A stretch of 64,000 bases of DNA from Desulfobacterium sp. (GTDB lineage Bacteria; Desulfobacterota; Desulfobacteria; Desulfobacterales; Desulfobacteraceae): NCBI GenBank assembly GCA_030145245.1, contig JAQYWC010000071.1:62001-126000 (forward strand). Direction: 5' to 3'. This document shows positions 20,139-28,055 of the stretch, piece by piece. The notes under the pieces are model-generated. The model saw only the letters and a list, made by a program, of their open reading frames with translations, searched no databases and had not been told where the DNA came from. The first letter of the stretch is position 1, and every line of letters starts with the position of its first letter. Position numbers and translations under genes: made by a program.

Positions 20139-20672
20139 TTAATCGGTTCCGGGCAGGCGCACCACAAGGACCGGCTTTTCAGCCTTCCTAAGGACCCGCC
20201 GGGTAATGCTTCCCATCATCACGTCGGCAAGGGACGTCTCCCCATGGCTGCCCATGACGATCATATCGCACTGCCGCAGTTCCGCCTGCTTTAGAATCTG
20301 CTTCACAGGGTTTCCCCGGTCAATAACGATCTCATCGCTGAACTCGGTTTTCCCGGCAGAATCCCTTTTCACATCCTTGGTAAACTGGGTCAGCACCTCC
20401 CGGATCAAAACATTGTCCCGTCTCTTTCCGATCAGGGAACTCCGGGTCTCCTGAATATTCCTGGCCTTGATCTCTTCCCACTTTTCCCTGGCAACATGGC
20501 CCAGGACATTTCGCTCCAGCAGATCTGGCATCTCCTGGATCACATGAAGGATGGTGATTCTCGCCCCATATCGTTCTGCAAGACTTACGGCATAGGCAAA
20601 GGCGTATCTTGCATTCTCCGATAAATCAGTGGCATACAAGATATTGCCTATGGTGACCTCCGGTAATTTCAT
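20139..20672 (-). CDS. Universal stress protein (UspA family)
   Basis: 177 residues. The fold is shown by ILYATDLSENARYAFAYAVSLA at the start and the ATP-binding signature MIVMGSHGETSLADVMMGSITRRVLRKA (G-2X-G-9X-G(S/T)) near residues 137-164. It follows the TRAP permease gene on the same strand by 18 bp. A Usp encoded with a TRAP transporter is a known arrangement (TeaD with TeaABC), where it modulates transport activity; the same role here is inferred. Confidence 0.92.
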   Translation of the reverse strand: MKLPEVTIGNILYATDLSENARYAFAYAVSLAERYGARITILHVIQEMPDLLERNVLGHVAREKWEEIKARNIQETRSSLIGKRRDNVLIREVLTQFTKDVKRDSAGKTEFSDEIVIDRGNPVKQILKQAELRQCDMIVMGSHGETSLADVMMGSITRRVLRKAEKPVLVVRLPGTD

Positions 20673-20690
20673 GGCTCCCCCTTTTCTATT

Positions 20691-22427
20691 CTATTTCCCA
20701 TTGCCGCCCCTGCTGAACACCCGTTTTAACGAACCGACCCAGATGCCGCTCAAGAACCATGAATAGGCCCAGGTGCCGAACAGAATGTAAACAAACGCTT
20801 TGGCAATGTCCATGGAAGATCCGTCCAGGGAGAACCCCGGCACATAGGCGAACAGCAGCGGACCAAGGTAGAGAAACTTGGCAAACTTGAACGAGGTAAA
20901 GGCTGTTTTCCACATGTTGGCCTTTGCAATGGTTGCCCCGGCAAAGGCGGCAATGCACACCGGCGGCGTGATGTTGGAATCCTGGGAAAGCCAGTAGACG
21001 ATCATGTGGGCGGCAAGCTGGTTCACCCCCAGGTGGGTAAGTGCCGGCACCGCCACCACCGCGGTGATCAGATAGGCCGCTGTGACAGGAACTCCCATGC
21101 CGAGTACAAGAGAGGCAACGGCAATGAGAGCGATGGTCAGGAGAAGCGATCCTCCGGCAAGCTCGATCATGATGTCGGCAAAGGTCAGCACCAGCCCGGA
21201 AAAGGTCAGAACCCCGATGATGATACCGATGATGCCCACGGTGGCACCGATCTTGAGGCTGTTCATTGCCCCATCCCTGGACGCCTGGACAAACTTCCGG
21301 GGACCGATCCGGGTATCCTTTCTGACCCACGAGATCACAAGGCAACTGACAAGGCCGAGGATGGCCGAGTAGGCCGGCGAATACCCGGTAAGCATGAAGA
21401 TGGTGATCACGATGAGTGGGATGGTATAAAACCACTCCCGTTTCAGGATCTCCATGGCCGAGTGTTCCGATCTTTCACCCACGATGTTGTGCTTCTTGGC
21501 CTCATAATGCACCATGACAAACACGCTGAAAAAATACATGAGCGCCGGAAAAATAGCCACCAGCATGATCCTCGAGTAGGGGAGTCCCGTGAGTTCGGCC
21601 ATGATAAAACCGCCAGCCCCCATGATGGGGGGCATGAACATTCCGCCGATGGAGGCGGCAGGCTCGATGCCTCCTGCCACATGGGGCTTAAACCCCGCCT
21701 TTTTCATCATGGGAATGGTGAACATTCCGGTTGAAACGGTGTTGGCAATTGCGCTTCCCGAGATGGAGCCCATGAGCCCGGATGCGATGACAGAGACCTT
21801 GGCGGGCCCGCCGATCTTATGGCCCACAGCAGCCAGGGGAAAGTCGATGAAGAACTTCTGGGCCCCGCATTTTTCAAGGAACGCGCCAAAAAGAACAAAG
21901 AGGATCACGTAGGTGGCAAGCACGTTGGCCATGATGCCGAACACCCCGTCGCTCTTGTAGAAAATACTGATGCAAAGTTCGGGGAACGGCGCCCCGGCAT
22001 GGGAAACGAGATCCGGCGCCATGTAGCCGAACACCCCGTAAAGGAGCATGACCACCCCGATGATGACAAAGATGTTTCCCACCACCCTTCTGGCAAGCTC
22101 GATGCCGATGAGAACACCCACAATGGCGACCACCATGTCAAGGCGTGTCTCGGCCCCTGTACGGTAATTAATCGTCTCAAAATTGAAGATCCAGTAGCCG
22201 ATGGAGCCCACCGAGAGCACCATGAGACAATAGTCCACCACCCGCATGATGGTGGACTTGGACCGGTAGAGCAGGAACACGAGAAGATAGGTGATGATGA
22301 CGTACACTCCCCGGTGGTACTGGGTTGCCATGGGCTGAATCACTGCGGCATAGGAGTAAAAAAGAACAAGAATCACCGAACATACATCAAAGAGTATCTG
22401 TTCGAACCTGTTTAATTTTTCATACAC
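20691..22427 (-). CDS. TRAP transporter permease, fused DctQ-DctM (TAXI type)
   Basis: 578 residues with many hydrophobic segments. The small 4TM module and the large 12TM module are fused, as is usual for TAXI-TRAP systems. The large-module signature is visible (SGLMGSISGSAIANTVSTG, then GGIEPAASIGGMFMPPIMG). It works with the periplasmic TAXI protein encoded upstream. Uptake is driven by an ion gradient, not ATP. The substrate is unknown; organic acids or glutamate-like compounds are typical. Confidence 0.93.
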   Translation of the reverse strand: MYEKLNRFEQILFDVCSVILVLFYSYAAVIQPMATQYHRGVYVIITYLLVFLLYRSKSTIMRVVDYCLMVLSVGSIGYWIFNFETINYRTGAETRLDMVVAIVGVLIGIELARRVVGNIFVIIGVVMLLYGVFGYMAPDLVSHAGAPFPELCISIFYKSDGVFGIMANVLATYVILFVLFGAFLEKCGAQKFFIDFPLAAVGHKIGGPAKVSVIASGLMGSISGSAIANTVSTGMFTIPMMKKAGFKPHVAGGIEPAASIGGMFMPPIMGAGGFIMAELTGLPYSRIMLVAIFPALMYFFSVFVMVHYEAKKHNIVGERSEHSAMEILKREWFYTIPLIVITIFMLTGYSPAYSAILGLVSCLVISWVRKDTRIGPRKFVQASRDGAMNSLKIGATVGIIGIIIGVLTFSGLVLTFADIMIELAGGSLLLTIALIAVASLVLGMGVPVTAAYLITAVVAVPALTHLGVNQLAAHMIVYWLSQDSNITPPVCIAAFAGATIAKANMWKTAFTSFKFAKFLYLGPLLFAYVPGFSLDGSSMDIAKAFVYILFGTWAYSWFLSGIWVGSLKRVFSRGGNGK

Positions 22428-22484
22428 GGTTGACCTGCCTATATTGGATTGAGACTGTTGATATCAAATAATTCTTCAGCCCAG

Positions 22485-22511
22485 TGCAGGGTGGAACCCG
22501 TCCACCCTGCA
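22485..22511 (-). terminator. Intercistronic hairpin between TRAP binding protein and permease genes
   Basis: A perfect 11-bp stem (TGCAGGGTGGA/TCCACCCTGCA) with a 5-nt loop lies in the 112-bp gap between the binding-protein stop and the permease start. No T tract follows on the minus strand, so it may be a partial terminator or an mRNA-stabilising element that lets the binding protein be made in excess. Confidence 0.6.
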
Positions 22512-22539
22512 TGGTTCGTCAGCAACAATTGGGAAAGAC

Positions 22540-23514
22540 CTATTTCAGCACGCCCTTCTCCTTCCAGAACCGTTCTGCACCTGGGTGAAAGGGAGTCACG
22601 ATTCCATTGGTGCCGGTTGAAACGCTCATCTCCTTGAAAGTTTTTTTCTGGCCGCGCATGTGCTTGAGCCCCTCGTCGGAGTAAATGAGAGAGAGCATTT
22701 TATATACCGTGTCAGCCGGAACTTTTGCGTTGGCAACCCAGAGGGTGGAATCCTGGAACGAGGGAATATCCTGGGTCACCCCCTTGTAGGTGTTGGCGGG
22801 AATGGTGAGTTTCGCAAAATAGGGGTATTGTTTGTAGAATCCACTGTCCACGGCGTCTTGATGCAGGTTCACAAGCTCGATGTCGTTGGTCTGGGCGGCC
22901 ATGATGACAGCACCGCTGGGAAAGGCGGTAAAGAGCCAGAAGGCATCCAGCTGATTGTTACCAAAGGCCTGGGCGGCATCGTTGTAGCCCATGGCGTTTC
23001 TCTCGACCTTGTCCCACACCCCCATGTAACTGAAAAAGAGCTCACAATTGGCAAAGGCGCCGGACCCGGCATTGCCCACGCCCACTTTCTTGCCCGCAAG
23101 GTCGCTGACGCTGGTGATGCCCGACCCCTTCCGGGTTACCAGCTGGGCAGGCGCCCCATAGAGGTAGGATACGGCCAGAACGTCCGTATACTTCCGCAGG
23201 TCATTCTTCATCTTTCCGTTACGCCCCAGCCACACATGGCCCGAATAAACCACACTCATCTGCTGTCTGCCGGCATTGGTTTTCCGAAGATTTTCAACTG
23301 ACCCCGCAGAAGACTGGGCCTGGACCTTAAACCCGGGAACCTGCTTCAGGGGTTTAAAGACCTGAATCCCGTTGGCAACAACCTGAAAAGTTCCTCCGGC
23401 AGGACCGCCGCCGAAGACGACCCGCTTCTTGGCAAAGGCCGAAGGAGAGACGAGCAGAGAGACACCTACAAATAAACCAAGGGCAAGACCTACCACATAC
23501 TGTTTACTTCCCAT
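22540..23514 (-). CDS. TAXI family TRAP transporter solute-binding protein
   Basis: 324 residues. A signal peptide is clear (about 28 residues, ending SPSAFA) and the TAXI-type start of the mature protein is RVVFGGGPAGGTFQVVANGI. A strong AGGAGG ribosome binding site precedes the ATG. The protein captures the solute in the periplasm for the fused permease downstream. The 297-bp gap upstream (23515-23810) holds a 10-G homopolymer and the ferredoxin terminator; no clear promoter was recognised. Confidence 0.93.
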   Translation of the reverse strand: MGSKQYVVGLALGLFVGVSLLVSPSAFAKKRVVFGGGPAGGTFQVVANGIQVFKPLKQVPGFKVQAQSSAGSVENLRKTNAGRQQMSVVYSGHVWLGRNGKMKNDLRKYTDVLAVSYLYGAPAQLVTRKGSGITSVSDLAGKKVGVGNAGSGAFANCELFFSYMGVWDKVERNAMGYNDAAQAFGNNQLDAFWLFTAFPSGAVIMAAQTNDIELVNLHQDAVDSGFYKQYPYFAKLTIPANTYKGVTQDIPSFQDSTLWVANAKVPADTVYKMLSLIYSDEGLKHMRGQKKTFKEMSVSTGTNGIVTPFHPGAERFWKEKGVLK

Positions 23515-24100: not shown

Positions 24101-25108
24101 TCAAGCATTTTTATTTCTGACACTCACCAGGCACACGGGAATTTCCATGTTTGAACCCCGGATCAGTGCGCTTTTTCTGGCCTCCCGGTCGGTCGGACAG
24201 AATATGTTAATCACATCATCACCCGAAAAAAGATAAAGCTGAATATCGGCCAACAGCCCACAGCCGTCGTCTGCTTCAATCAAATCATTCGTTCCCGGGT
24301 TGTTGCCGGAGATGGCGTTTTCCATGGAACTTTTCAAACGTTCCTGCCACCCGGCGCTGTGTTTACAACACCCTTCATGCACTTTAAAATTCTCAATGTC
24401 AAGAATCTTTGTAGACTTTTTTGACTTTGAGTGAAAATAGTCCATTACGGCCTGGCTGGCGGTGACCGGGATAAGGGGTTCCCGCTCCCTGAGAACATCG
24501 ATTTTTTGGCGGAAAAACCGCGCCCAGGCTAGAATTCTCTCTTCCGTCATGGCCCTGCCCTGATCCTGATCCAGGGTGCAGGAATCCACGCCCTGTTTCG
24601 ACAAAGTCGCCCCATCCTTCAGGGCGGAGAAGAGTGCCGCTTCATTCCTGGCAATGGAGCAAAGCCTTGTGTTGACTTCCTCCGTATCCGCATCAGACTC
24701 CTGGGCGGTCCTCAAAAAGACAAGGGACTTGAGGTACGCCTCCCTGGAATCAACCGGAGCCACAGGCTCAGGGGAACCGGAACGACTTAGCCCAGCCCCC
24801 TGCTCGATACTCGATTTCAGCGTTGCAACCCCGGTATCACTGGTAAAATAGGGGGTCTCCCTAACCCGGGCTTTCAATTGGCCGGACCGGCCCTGGTTCA
24901 CCGCGGCCCACTGCTTATAATCCTCGACCGTTGCAAGGGTCGACATGAGCTCATCGGGTGTCGGCAAAACAAGGTCAATGTCCGGATTCCGGCCCTCAAC
25001 CTCTTTTGGAGAACTGACGCCCAAGTGGCAGAAGCTCTTAAAACAGGCGAAAAGCGCCCTGGCATCCTGTTGTCGTACATGGGTAAACGGAAAGAACAGA
25101 GGTTTCAT
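24101..25108 (-). CDS. Uncharacterised protein encoded next to the CysK/CysRS-like fusion
   Basis: 335 residues that I do not recognise. There is no signal peptide or membrane segment. It is mostly polar and probably helical in the middle, with a cysteine pair in KVHEGCCKHSAGW and a C-terminal alpha/beta-looking part ending IPVCLVSVRNK. It starts 5 bp after the fusion gene stop, so both are almost certainly translated from one mRNA. Codon use looks like its neighbours. No function is proposed; a role linked to the fusion protein is only suggested by the spacing. Confidence 0.7.
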   Translation of the reverse strand: MKPLFFPFTHVRQQDARALFACFKSFCHLGVSSPKEVEGRNPDIDLVLPTPDELMSTLATVEDYKQWAAVNQGRSGQLKARVRETPYFTSDTGVATLKSSIEQGAGLSRSGSPEPVAPVDSREAYLKSLVFLRTAQESDADTEEVNTRLCSIARNEAALFSALKDGATLSKQGVDSCTLDQDQGRAMTEERILAWARFFRQKIDVLREREPLIPVTASQAVMDYFHSKSKKSTKILDIENFKVHEGCCKHSAGWQERLKSSMENAISGNNPGTNDLIEADDGCGLLADIQLYLFSGDDVINIFCPTDREARKSALIRGSNMEIPVCLVSVRNKNA

Positions 25109-25113
25109 TTATC

Positions 25114-27393
25114 TCACACCTTTTTATCGTTAATCTCAACACCCATGGCCACAAGCTCCTCCCTGAGACGGTCAGATAACTCCCACTCCCTGTTCAACCG
25201 GGCGGCTTCCCGCTCTTCCAGGAGTTTGGCGACCTTGGCCGAAGGAACCTTGCCGGGATAAAAATCAAATATTTTTAGCACGCTGTCGATCTCCTTAAAA
25301 AGATCGATAACCGCCCGGGCGCCGGAAGGATCAATCCCCTGGGTGTCCATGAGCCGGTTCAACTCCTTCACCCCCTTGAACAGCGCCGCCATCACCCCCG
25401 GGATCTTCAGATCATCATCCATGGAGGAAAGAAAGCCCTGCTTCAGGTCATAGAGCAGCTGGTCAAGCCCATCATACCGTTCTCCCGCCTGCACACCGGC
25501 AAGGGCGGCAAGGCAGCGGTCCAGCTTGTAAAGGGAGCGCCTTGCGTCGTCAAGGGACTGGCTTGAGAGGGTAAGGGGTTTGCGGTAGTGGGAGGAGAGA
25601 AGCCAGAACCGGACCAGCCTGGGCTCCCACCCAAGGTTTTCCAGGATATCGAGATCGATTTTGGAAAGGGCATCCACCCCGAGGCTGCCGTCATAGTTGA
25701 CCGTGTCACAGTGCATCCACACCCTGGCAAGGGGCTCCCCTGCAAGGGCCCGGCACATGGCGTTCTCGTTCTCATGGTGGGGAAACAACAGCTCCCTTGA
25801 GCCGGTGTGGATATCAAACCCCTCTCCATGGTAATTCATGGCCATGGCCGCACACTGGAGATGGAGGGAGGGGCGGACATTTCCCCACTTGGTTTTCACG
25901 CACACCCCCCGTTTCAGCTCGGAAAGCCCCACCCGCTTCAACAGGGTAAAATCCTTGGGATTCTCCTTTTCATAGTCGTCCAGATCCACGGTGGCACCCA
26001 CCCTGATCTTGTCAAGGTCCACCCCGGAAAGTGAGCCGTACCCGGGAAGGCTCGAGATGTCAAAGTAAAGGGACCTGAGCTTTTCATAGGCATATCCGTT
26101 ATCACTGAGCCTTTCGGCAAGGGCCACCATCTCGTCCACATGGTCCGAAACAAGGGGGTAGGACTGGGCGGGCCTGACCCCAAGGGAGTCAAGATCCCGC
26201 TTAAACGCGTCAACAAAGGGCCGGGTAAACCCGGTAACGGAAACACCCTCCTGCTCTGACCCCTGGATGGTCTTGTCATCCAGATCCGTGATGTTGACCA
26301 CATGGTTAACCGAAAGCCGCCGGTACTCAAGGTACCGTACAAGAAGGTCGGTTGCAACAAAACGCCTGAACCGCGAGGGGTCCATCCGTTTGTGAACCGT
26401 GGGACCGCAGGTGTAAACGGACACCTTGCCCTGGGTCTTGGGTTCAAACCGCTCCTGGCTCCGGGACAGGGTGTTATAGAGATCAAGGCTGATGTTGTCC
26501 CTGACCGTGAACAGGGAGGTGGAAAGGTACCGCTCACCGCTGTCGGGAAAGATAACCACCACCGTGCCGGTCTTGATCTTCTTTGCCTCTTCAATGGCAA
26601 CGGCCATGGCCGCGCCGCTGCTCATCCCCACAAAAAGGCCCTCGCTCCTGGCAAGGTTCCTGGCAGCCTCAAAGGCGGTTTCATCGTCGATGTTCACCTT
26701 TTCATCCAGCCGTTTCTTATCAAAGAGATCGGGAATGTAGGACTCTTTCATGTTCTTGAGTCCCTGGATACCATGGCCCAGATAGGGCTCGGCACCAATG
26801 ATCCGGATGTCGGGATTGAGCTCCTTGAGTTTCCGGGACAGTCCCATGAGGGTGCCGCTGGTTCCAAGGGTCGCCACCACGCTGGTCACCCTGCCCTGGG
26901 TCTGCTCCCAGATCTCCGGAGCAGTGGTCCTGTAGTGGGCCATCCAGTTGGCATCGTTGTTGTACTGGTCTGTCATAAAGTAACGGTCGGGATTTTCCCG
27001 GGCCAGGCGGTACACCTCTTCGATGGCACCGTCTGATCCCAGGTGTCCGGGGGTAAGCCGGATCTCGGCCCCCCTGGCCCTGAGGATACTCTTTCTCTCT
27101 TCGCTTGCCGATTCCGACATGGCAAGAAGAAGACTATACCCTTTTTCCGAACAGATCATGGCAAGGCCGATCCCCGTGTTTCCGCTGGTGGCTTCGATCA
27201 CGGTCTTGCCCGGCACAAGCTCTCCGCTTTTTTCCCCCTGCTCAATCATGGAGAGGGCTGCCCTGTCCTTGATCGATCCCCCGGGGTTCATATACTCAAG
27301 CTTGGCAAAAATTCTGACCCCTGGAACCGGATTCATCCGTTTTATCTCCACCAGGGGCGTGTTTCCGATGGAGTCGAGAATTGAATGGCTCAT
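25114..27393 (-). CDS. Cysteine synthase fused to a CysRS-like domain lacking HIGH and KMSKS
   Basis: 759 residues. Residues 1-300 are an O-acetylserine sulfhydrylase-type enzyme: PLP lysine in GGSIKDRAA (Lys42), TSGNTG (69-74) and SSGAA (259-262). From ~303 the sequence aligns along the whole of cysteinyl-tRNA synthetase (LYNTLSR, CGPTV, VVNITDLDDKTI, FDIHTGSRELLFPHHENE, SSHYRKPL, and the C-terminal helical end). The zinc ligands Cys329, Cys514, His539 and Glu543 are kept. The HIGH position reads DPSR and the KMSKS position reads SLGVD. Trp205 of E. coli CysRS is Leu here. Aminoacyl-adenylate chemistry is therefore doubtful; cysteine sensing or channelling is inferred. It overlaps tmk by 4 bp. 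Confidence 0.9.
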   Translation of the reverse strand: MSHSILDSIGNTPLVEIKRMNPVPGVRIFAKLEYMNPGGSIKDRAALSMIEQGEKSGELVPGKTVIEATSGNTGIGLAMICSEKGYSLLLAMSESASEERKSILRARGAEIRLTPGHLGSDGAIEEVYRLARENPDRYFMTDQYNNDANWMAHYRTTAPEIWEQTQGRVTSVVATLGTSGTLMGLSRKLKELNPDIRIIGAEPYLGHGIQGLKNMKESYIPDLFDKKRLDEKVNIDDETAFEAARNLARSEGLFVGMSSGAAMAVAIEEAKKIKTGTVVVIFPDSGERYLSTSLFTVRDNISLDLYNTLSRSQERFEPKTQGKVSVYTCGPTVHKRMDPSRFRRFVATDLLVRYLEYRRLSVNHVVNITDLDDKTIQGSEQEGVSVTGFTRPFVDAFKRDLDSLGVRPAQSYPLVSDHVDEMVALAERLSDNGYAYEKLRSLYFDISSLPGYGSLSGVDLDKIRVGATVDLDDYEKENPKDFTLLKRVGLSELKRGVCVKTKWGNVRPSLHLQCAAMAMNYHGEGFDIHTGSRELLFPHHENENAMCRALAGEPLARVWMHCDTVNYDGSLGVDALSKIDLDILENLGWEPRLVRFWLLSSHYRKPLTLSSQSLDDARRSLYKLDRCLAALAGVQAGERYDGLDQLLYDLKQGFLSSMDDDLKIPGVMAALFKGVKELNRLMDTQGIDPSGARAVIDLFKEIDSVLKIFDFYPGKVPSAKVAKLLEEREAARLNREWELSDRLREELVAMGVEINDKKV

Positions 27394-28055
27394 GATGCGC
27401 TGCTTCCTTTGCCCTGGAGTTCAAGCCCAAGGCGTTTGTTAATTCCGGACACAATCTCCCCAAAGACCTGATCCTGGGTTCCTGCGGCATCAACCACCAG
27501 GAAGCGCTCCCTTTCCGCCTGGGCAAGGGCAAGATAGCCTTGCCGCACCCGCTGGTGGAATTCAAGGGCCTCCTGCTCGAACCGGGTCTCATCAGCGGTT
27601 CTTGCGCCTTTTTCCAAAGCACTGAAGGCCCGCTGGAGCCCGATTTCCGGATCCAGGTCAAAAAGGACGGTAAGGTCGGGCCGAAGATCCTGCACAACCA
27701 CGGAGTGGATGGTATCGATTAATTCTTTGGCAATCCCCCGGGCAGCGCCCTGATAAACGGTGGTGGCGTCGGTAAACCTGTCGCACAGCACGGTTTTGCC
27801 CGCGCCCAGCGACGGAACCACGACTTCAAACAGGTGCTGGGCCCGGTCTGCTCCATACAGAAAAAGCTCGCACAGGTCCGACATCCCGCTGTTGTCCGGG
27901 TCAAGGAGAATGGCCCTGATTTTTTTTCCGATAGGGGTATCGCCAGGTTCCCTTGTGACAACCGTGTCATGCCCGTTTTCATCAAAACAGGCTGACAATC
28001 TCTTAATCTGTGTTGTCTTGCCGGAACCTTCGATCCCTTCAAAGGTGATAAACAT
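27390..28055 (-). CDS. tmk: Thymidylate kinase
   Basis: 221 residues. The P-loop FEGIEGSGKTTQI is near the N-terminus, VVTREPGDTPIG carries the DR(E)-type dTMP-binding segment, and CDRFTDATTVYQGAARG is the signature around residues 93-109. It phosphorylates dTMP to dTDP. It is the first gene of a minus-strand unit with the cysteine synthase/CysRS-like fusion, which it overlaps by 4 bp. It is divergent from lptD (118 bp), so the shared gap should hold both promoters. Confidence 0.95.
   Translation of the reverse strand: MFITFEGIEGSGKTTQIKRLSACFDENGHDTVVTREPGDTPIGKKIRAILLDPDNSGMSDLCELFLYGADRAQHLFEVVVPSLGAGKTVLCDRFTDATTVYQGAARGIAKELIDTIHSVVVQDLRPDLTVLFDLDPEIGLQRAFSALEKGARTADETRFEQEALEFHQRVRQGYLALAQAERERFLVVDAAGTQDQVFGEIVSGINKRLGLELQGKGSSAS

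Follow-up and report, generated by a model that had tools for sequence, protein, structure and literature searches.

The window, by which we mean the whole 64,000-nucleotide stretch of DNA that was analysed, contains a gene (25114..27393; this and all other window features described here lie on the minus strand) whose single uninterrupted open reading frame encodes a 759-aa protein. Pfam and NCBIfam profiles and the predicted fold identify this protein as a cysteine synthase joined to a cysteinyl-tRNA synthetase (CysRS)-like region. The N-terminal half (residues 1-296; 26506..27393) is a PLP cysteine synthase of the CysK/CysM family: it matches PALP with an E value of 1.7e-75, scores above the cut-off for TIGR01136 (361 versus 344 bits; NCBIfam), and resembles OASS and CysM structures with Z scores of 35-36 (35.9 for M. 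tuberculosis CysM). The initial annotation had described an intact PLP-type synthase, and we found Lys42 (within SIKDR), TSGNTG and SSGAA all in place.

The same annotation placed a full-length CysRS-like region downstream of the synthase, and both the Pfam domains and the fold agree. This half (about residues 301-759) has a full-length CysRS fold, consisting of a catalytic domain (residues 303-609; 25567..26487; tRNA-synt_1e, E 8.4e-69), a helical bundle (residues 610-712; 25258..25566; DALR_2, E 8e-7) and a CysS_C anticodon-binding domain (residues 716-757; 25123..25248) that contains R728, R732, W737, D741, R744 and D756. The CysS_C match of the window protein falls just under the Pfam cut-off (21.9 versus 23 bits); among 45 fusions from related genomes, DALR_2, CysS_C and the complete four-domain layout were each found in 44. 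Against TIGR00435, the cysS equivalog model of NCBIfam, the CysRS-like half scores 312 bits, below the cut-off of 340. An AlphaFold2 model of the fusion (mean pLDDT 83) superposes on CysRS structures with Z scores of 46-47 on the DALI scale (rmsd 1.9-2.6 over 370-396 residues), and on CysRS with bound tRNA (1u0b) with a Z score of 46 (rmsd 6.3 over 435 residues). At a pTM of 0.60, the predicted model does not fix the mutual placement of the two halves, and no allosteric path is visible in it.

The two ATP-binding motifs of class I synthetases were said to be replaced, and alignment with phmmer bore this out: residues 338-341 (DPSR; 26371..26382) align without a gap to HLGH of the CysRS 8qhp, and residues 570-574 (SLGVD; 25672..25686) align to KMSKS. 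The window protein has neither an HxG sequence nor any Lys-Met-Ser, and the predicted model keeps the CysRS fold despite this loss. The zinc/cysteine site, by contrast, was reported as retained, and all four ligands are indeed present: Cys329 (26407..26409; C28 in E. coli), Cys514 (25852..25854; C209), and His539 and Glu543 (25765..25779; H234 and E238). At two other positions, those of E. coli W205 and D229, the window protein has leucine and glutamate, respectively. Because the ATP motifs are gone, the CysRS-like half of this protein would no longer activate cysteine, and we consider charging of tRNA very unlikely.

The fusion gene is flanked closely on both sides. Its start overlaps a thymidylate kinase gene (27390..28055) by 4 bp, so that translational coupling of the two is likely; in about 20 loci a thymidylate kinase gene likewise precedes the fusion. 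Downstream, after a gap of 5 bases, lies a 335-aa open reading frame (24101..25108) of a family that we call D1. D1 adjoins the fusion on the same strand in 36-37 loci, is located directly upstream of it in another family (L213), and occurs in 90 of 96 genomes of the order. Within the phylum sample, it was found in 51 of 90 fusion genomes versus 5 of 157 others, such that 51 of the 56 D1-positive genomes carry the fusion. No Pfam family was supported by more than one D1 member (best E 0.007), and the D1 structure model was unusable (pLDDT 43.5). An FPFT motif lies near the D1 N-terminus, and D1-like stretches occur inside open frames of 1091 and 1107 aa in two genomes (G088:C21:29147-29785 and G530:C51:39788-40432), possibly as fusions to another protein. 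The same strand also carries, at 20139-23514, genes for a TAXI-type TRAP transporter (an NMT1_3-like binding protein and a DctM-type permease) and, after them, one for a universal stress protein.

A separate CysRS and the spread of the fusion

A second CysRS with intact HIGH and KMSKS was sought in the window's own genome and is present: contig C69 encodes a canonical CysRS with SHIGHARS and EKMSKSLGN, adjoining ispF. The presence of this intact enzyme indicates that the fusion is an extra protein and not the translational CysRS. We tested 38 fusion genomes for a separate CysRS and found one in 34; the remaining four are draft MAGs with a completeness of 62-94%. Both motifs are kept in all 33 canonical Desulfobacterota CysRS sequences that we read. 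Intact CysRS genes in this and related genomes thus rule out the fusion as the cell's only CysRS. The alternative proposed earlier, a SepRS/SepCysS system, did not hold. The best match to a SepRS profile in the window's genome reached 24 bits against a cut-off of 381, which two control genomes exceeded; SepRS is absent, and that route is therefore not involved. No tRNA gene lies within the 64-kb window.

We found full-length fusions in most of 98 relatives, at 55-95% identity, and in most genomes of the order. Across the phylum Desulfobacterota, at least about 145 of 395 sampled genomes carry the fusion, including at least 90 of the first 247; these are lower bounds, obtained by counting by hand the frames of at least 700 aa among the matches listed. 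Named carriers include Desulfobacula, Desulforapulum, Desulfocapsa and Candidatus Desulfobulbus. A broader scan of genome contigs gave mostly canonical CysRS, and the occurrence figures given here describe Desulfobacterota. The fusion family is widespread in sulfate-reducing Desulfobacterota and is neither an artefact nor an isolated case. Alignment across the phylum, which the initial annotation had called for, comprised 98 fusions and revealed recurrent motif loss; these homologues rule out a sequencing artefact or the oddity of a single genome. It had also been considered that homologues might have intact motifs, which would make this copy the exception, and we found that only 1 of the 98 keeps HIGH, KMSKS and the zinc ligands. 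Motif loss, first taken as a property of one protein, is instead a phylum-wide family trait that occurs in graded stages.

Several unusual loci came to light in these searches. In a genome of the same genus (G002), a second copy of the fusion, truncated at its N-terminus and close to a transposase-like open reading frame (L212:2854-4974), is probably a decaying duplicate. At L150 (G225) the fusion lies inside a 1403-aa open frame, which could include a third domain or simply be open upstream. Two other Desulfobacterota genomes encode a different CysRS-like protein in frames of 729-742 aa (L210:4845-7031 and L211:3963-6188), with HIGN, a long C-terminal extension and no KMSKS by pattern search; at L210, a frame matching the D1 family lies approximately 1.5 kb from it.

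The synthase half and its probable use of O-phosphoserine

The synthase motifs are invariant in the fusions of relatives. Lys42 (27268..27270), the lysine that forms the PLP Schiff base, is invariant in 45 fusions and is contained in SxKDR or SxKER in all aligned fusions. Also invariant in the 45 is Lys213 (26755..26757; in GLKNMKES), which falls at the position of Arg220 of M. tuberculosis CysM. Residues 203-225 align to CysM without a gap (3dwi and 3dki; Arg220 in 3dwi numbering), and the fusion and CysM share a three-residue insertion, OAS-type enzymes being three residues short in this region. We take Arg220 of CysM to be a ligand of the O-phosphoserine phosphate. The fusion differs from CysM in having lysine for this arginine and in carrying a CysRS-like half. 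CysM draws its sulfur from a sulfur-carrier protein.

The genomic context of the fusion bears on its substrate as well. Four complete genomes (G017, G135, G197 and G424) and two near-complete ones (G009 and G081) have no cysteine synthase other than the fusion. Serine acetyltransferase (CysE) is absent from five of these (G017, G081, G135, G197 and G424), and in G009 the sole match to it is a partial one of 196 aa. Among 247 genomes, CysE is missing in 53 of 90 that carry the fusion versus 38 of 157 others (p about 7e-8, with kinship ignored), and in all 8 CysK-carrying genomes tested for both genes CysE adjoins the separate CysK. The window's own genome is of this latter kind: it contains CysE, and a separate CysK gene directly follows it on contig C35. 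The simplest reading of Lys213, together with genomes that lack CysE and have the fusion as sole synthase, is an O-phosphoserine-dependent enzyme, and on these sequence features the synthase half is probably of this type. With the fusion, these sulfide-rich bacteria would then have a probable way of making cysteine from O-phosphoserine that needs no serine acetyltransferase.

Decay and constraint in the CysRS-like half

A tree that combined the 98 fusion halves with 69 canonical CysRS shows the fusion halves to be monophyletic (support 0.80). They group with CysRS of the HIGN type from other phyla (support 1.0 at the parent node) and not with the HIGH-type CysRS of their own genomes. Within the fusion clade the motifs have decayed to different degrees: H.G[HN] is kept at the HIGH position in 5 of 98 fusions, KMS.S in 22, and all zinc ligands in 71. 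Individually, the equivalents of Cys329, Cys514, His539 and Glu543 are kept in 86, 90, 98 and 75 of the 98. Under parsimony, with an intact ancestor assumed, KMSKS was lost about 8 times on the tree, HxG 13-18 times and the complete zinc set 10 times. L125 is the sole fusion with a HIGH-type motif, a KMSKS-type motif and all zinc ligands; HLGN or HLGL with KMSRS persists in some fusions (L125 and L145), and a few of this kind might still be active. Every aligned fusion among the window's close relatives (L001, L009-L037) has all four zinc ligands. The full set is missing in 27 of the 98, lost in several lineages (L172-L175, L177, L127, L152, L163, L167 and L170), which indicates that cysteine binding is not a function common to all fusions.

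The anticodon-binding domain has behaved differently from the ATP motifs. The equivalents of E. coli R423, D436, R439 and D451 are identical in 98 of 98 fusions, that of R427 in 96, and the W432 position is aromatic in all 98. The anticodon contacts of E. coli CysRS presumably lie among R427, W432, D436 and D451; the retained residues could be structural instead. As a matched control, we expressed pairwise identity among fusions relative to that among the canonical CysRS of the same genomes. The catalytic part gave a ratio of 0.82, the helical bundle one of 1.03 and the anticodon domain one of 0.94. These ratios indicate that the C-terminal, tRNA-facing part is constrained like that of a working synthetase, and the catalytic part less so. 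In close fusion pairs, dN/dS is 0.05-0.16 for the catalytic part, indicative of selection and not of pseudogene drift, which is ruled out by these values well below 1 and by frames that are open throughout. For the anticodon domain, dN/dS is high and noisy (0.08-0.8) because the domain is short, and this weakens the argument for constraint there.

Proposed function of the fusion and comparison with known systems

Of the roles first suggested for the domain, namely sensor, carrier or tRNA-linked regulator, a sensor or tRNA-linked regulator is the class that best fits a selected CysRS-like half beside a separate intact CysRS; the part that rested on cysteine binding does not extend to the whole family. 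Our best explanation, which we would give an even chance, is that the fused half is a pseudo-CysRS module that reads tRNA-Cys, and in the window's clade cysteine as well, and so controls or positions the synthase to which it is attached. Under this model, a working PLP cysteine synthase, probably using O-phosphoserine and sulfide as substrates, would be covalently attached to a dead CysRS that has kept its fold, helical bundle and anticodon-binding domain, and in the window's order its zinc/cysteine pocket. The CysRS-like half would bind tRNA-Cys, charged or uncharged, and in the window's clade also cysteine, and the bound state would be passed to the synthase as allosteric control; alternatively, freshly made cysteine may be held near tRNA-Cys and CysRS. 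For E. coli CysRS, communication from the anticodon to the active site has been described (PMC9976931). For the fusion we infer tRNA binding, sensing and allostery, and we tentatively extend this to a broader possibility: that in Desulfobacterota the fused pseudo-CysRS, by recognising tRNA-Cys directly, controls cysteine synthesis or determines where it takes place. The activity of the enzyme would in that case be set by the charging state of its own product's tRNA, at the protein level and not through a T-box or leader peptide.

A simpler scheme would dispense with tRNA: cysteine bound at the zinc could feed back on the synthase, making the CysRS-like half a pure cysteine sensor. HisZ, which does not adenylate and which mediates histidine feedback, offers the precedent of an amino-acid-binding dead synthetase that regulates biosynthesis (PMC9437257), and the complete zinc site in all aligned close relatives of the window protein is what such a sensor would need. 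We nevertheless consider this reading rather unlikely, since the 27 fusions without a full zinc set have kept the anticodon-domain residues, and since the window protein itself has leucine and glutamate for W205 and D229. If the half served the synthase only as a scaffold, structural or for oligomerisation, this would explain why residues of the catalytic and zinc sites vary but those of the core fold stay, and separate CysK enzymes do work without any CysRS-like half; a scaffold, however, has no obvious need to keep five positions of the anticodon domain fixed (in 96-98 of 98 fusions), for canonical-like constraint in that region, or for a four-domain layout that is so nearly always complete, and we regard this explanation as improbable.

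Continued charging of tRNA-Cys, or of a special tRNA, through variant motifs draws on the HLGN/HLGL and KMSRS sequences of some relatives and on the fact that HIGN-type motifs are normal in other CysRS. For the window protein, with no HxG and no Lys-Met-Ser, this seems highly improbable, the more so given the intact CysRS in the same genomes and a window free of tRNA genes. We attach even less weight to another cysteine chemistry, either persulfide formation or an MshC-like ligation of cysteine to a small molecule, although the zinc-cysteine pocket is kept in the order and the conserved D1 gene follows the fusion. MshC resembles the fusion in being a CysRS paralogue that acts outside translation, and its structure matches the fusion model with a Z score of 43.6, but it is an ATP-using ligase unfused to a synthase; ligation of its type needs the ATP motifs, and the MshC model TIGR03447 gives 147 bits against a cut-off of 485, which rules out membership in that family. 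Persulfide formation, as suggested earlier, would by the route proposed for CARS depend on the same region: KMSKS lysines are proposed to bind PLP in that reaction, and they are lost here.

Regulation of amino-acid synthesis by a dead synthetase paralogue is rare, and HisZ is the textbook case. Two features of the HisZ-like class, the lack of adenylation motifs and a separate intact synthetase elsewhere in the genome, were found for the fusion, and a third, allosteric control of the biosynthetic partner, is what we propose. As with HisZ, the enzyme to which the dead synthetase is attached belongs to the pathway of the cognate amino acid. Unlike HisZ, a class II protein that acts as a separate subunit and senses histidine, the fusion is class I, covalent and in the cysteine pathway, with its anticodon-binding domain and key residues kept. 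The HisRS-like domain of GCN2 is likewise a pseudo-synthetase fused to another enzyme, and it senses tRNA, as we propose for the fusion; GCN2, however, is a eukaryotic kinase with a class II domain and a known function. With SepRS/SepCysS the fusion would share a physical link between cysteine formation and tRNA-Cys recognition, but its PLP enzyme is of the CysK/CysM type, no charging is expected, and the genome has no SepRS. We know of no dead synthetase regulator that is fused to the biosynthetic enzyme itself, or that is class I and serves cysteine. Our search of the open literature on the fusion and its parts returned no description of it; dead synthetase regulators as such are already known, and what we did not find there is a class I example that is covalently attached, belongs to cysteine synthesis and extends across a phylum. 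With many independent stages of decay beside an intact paralogue, the family shows what a synthetase keeps once charging is not its job. It also corrects annotation, as such proteins are easily labelled cysteine--tRNA ligase.

Another noncanonical CysRS is known from the same bacterial group. CysRS* (cysS*) of Desulfobacterales is an active enzyme without an anticodon domain and is coupled to selC*/selB* (PMC7609411, PMC9437257). In the fusion the situation is inverted: it has kept the anticodon domain, lost the ATP motifs and been joined to a cysteine synthase, and its anticodon domain and absent active motifs rule it out as a CysRS*. One genome (G464) encodes a 427-aa CysRS with KMSKS and without an anticodon domain (L214:2538-3818) that fits the published CysRS*; this genome also holds a canonical CysRS and the fusion.
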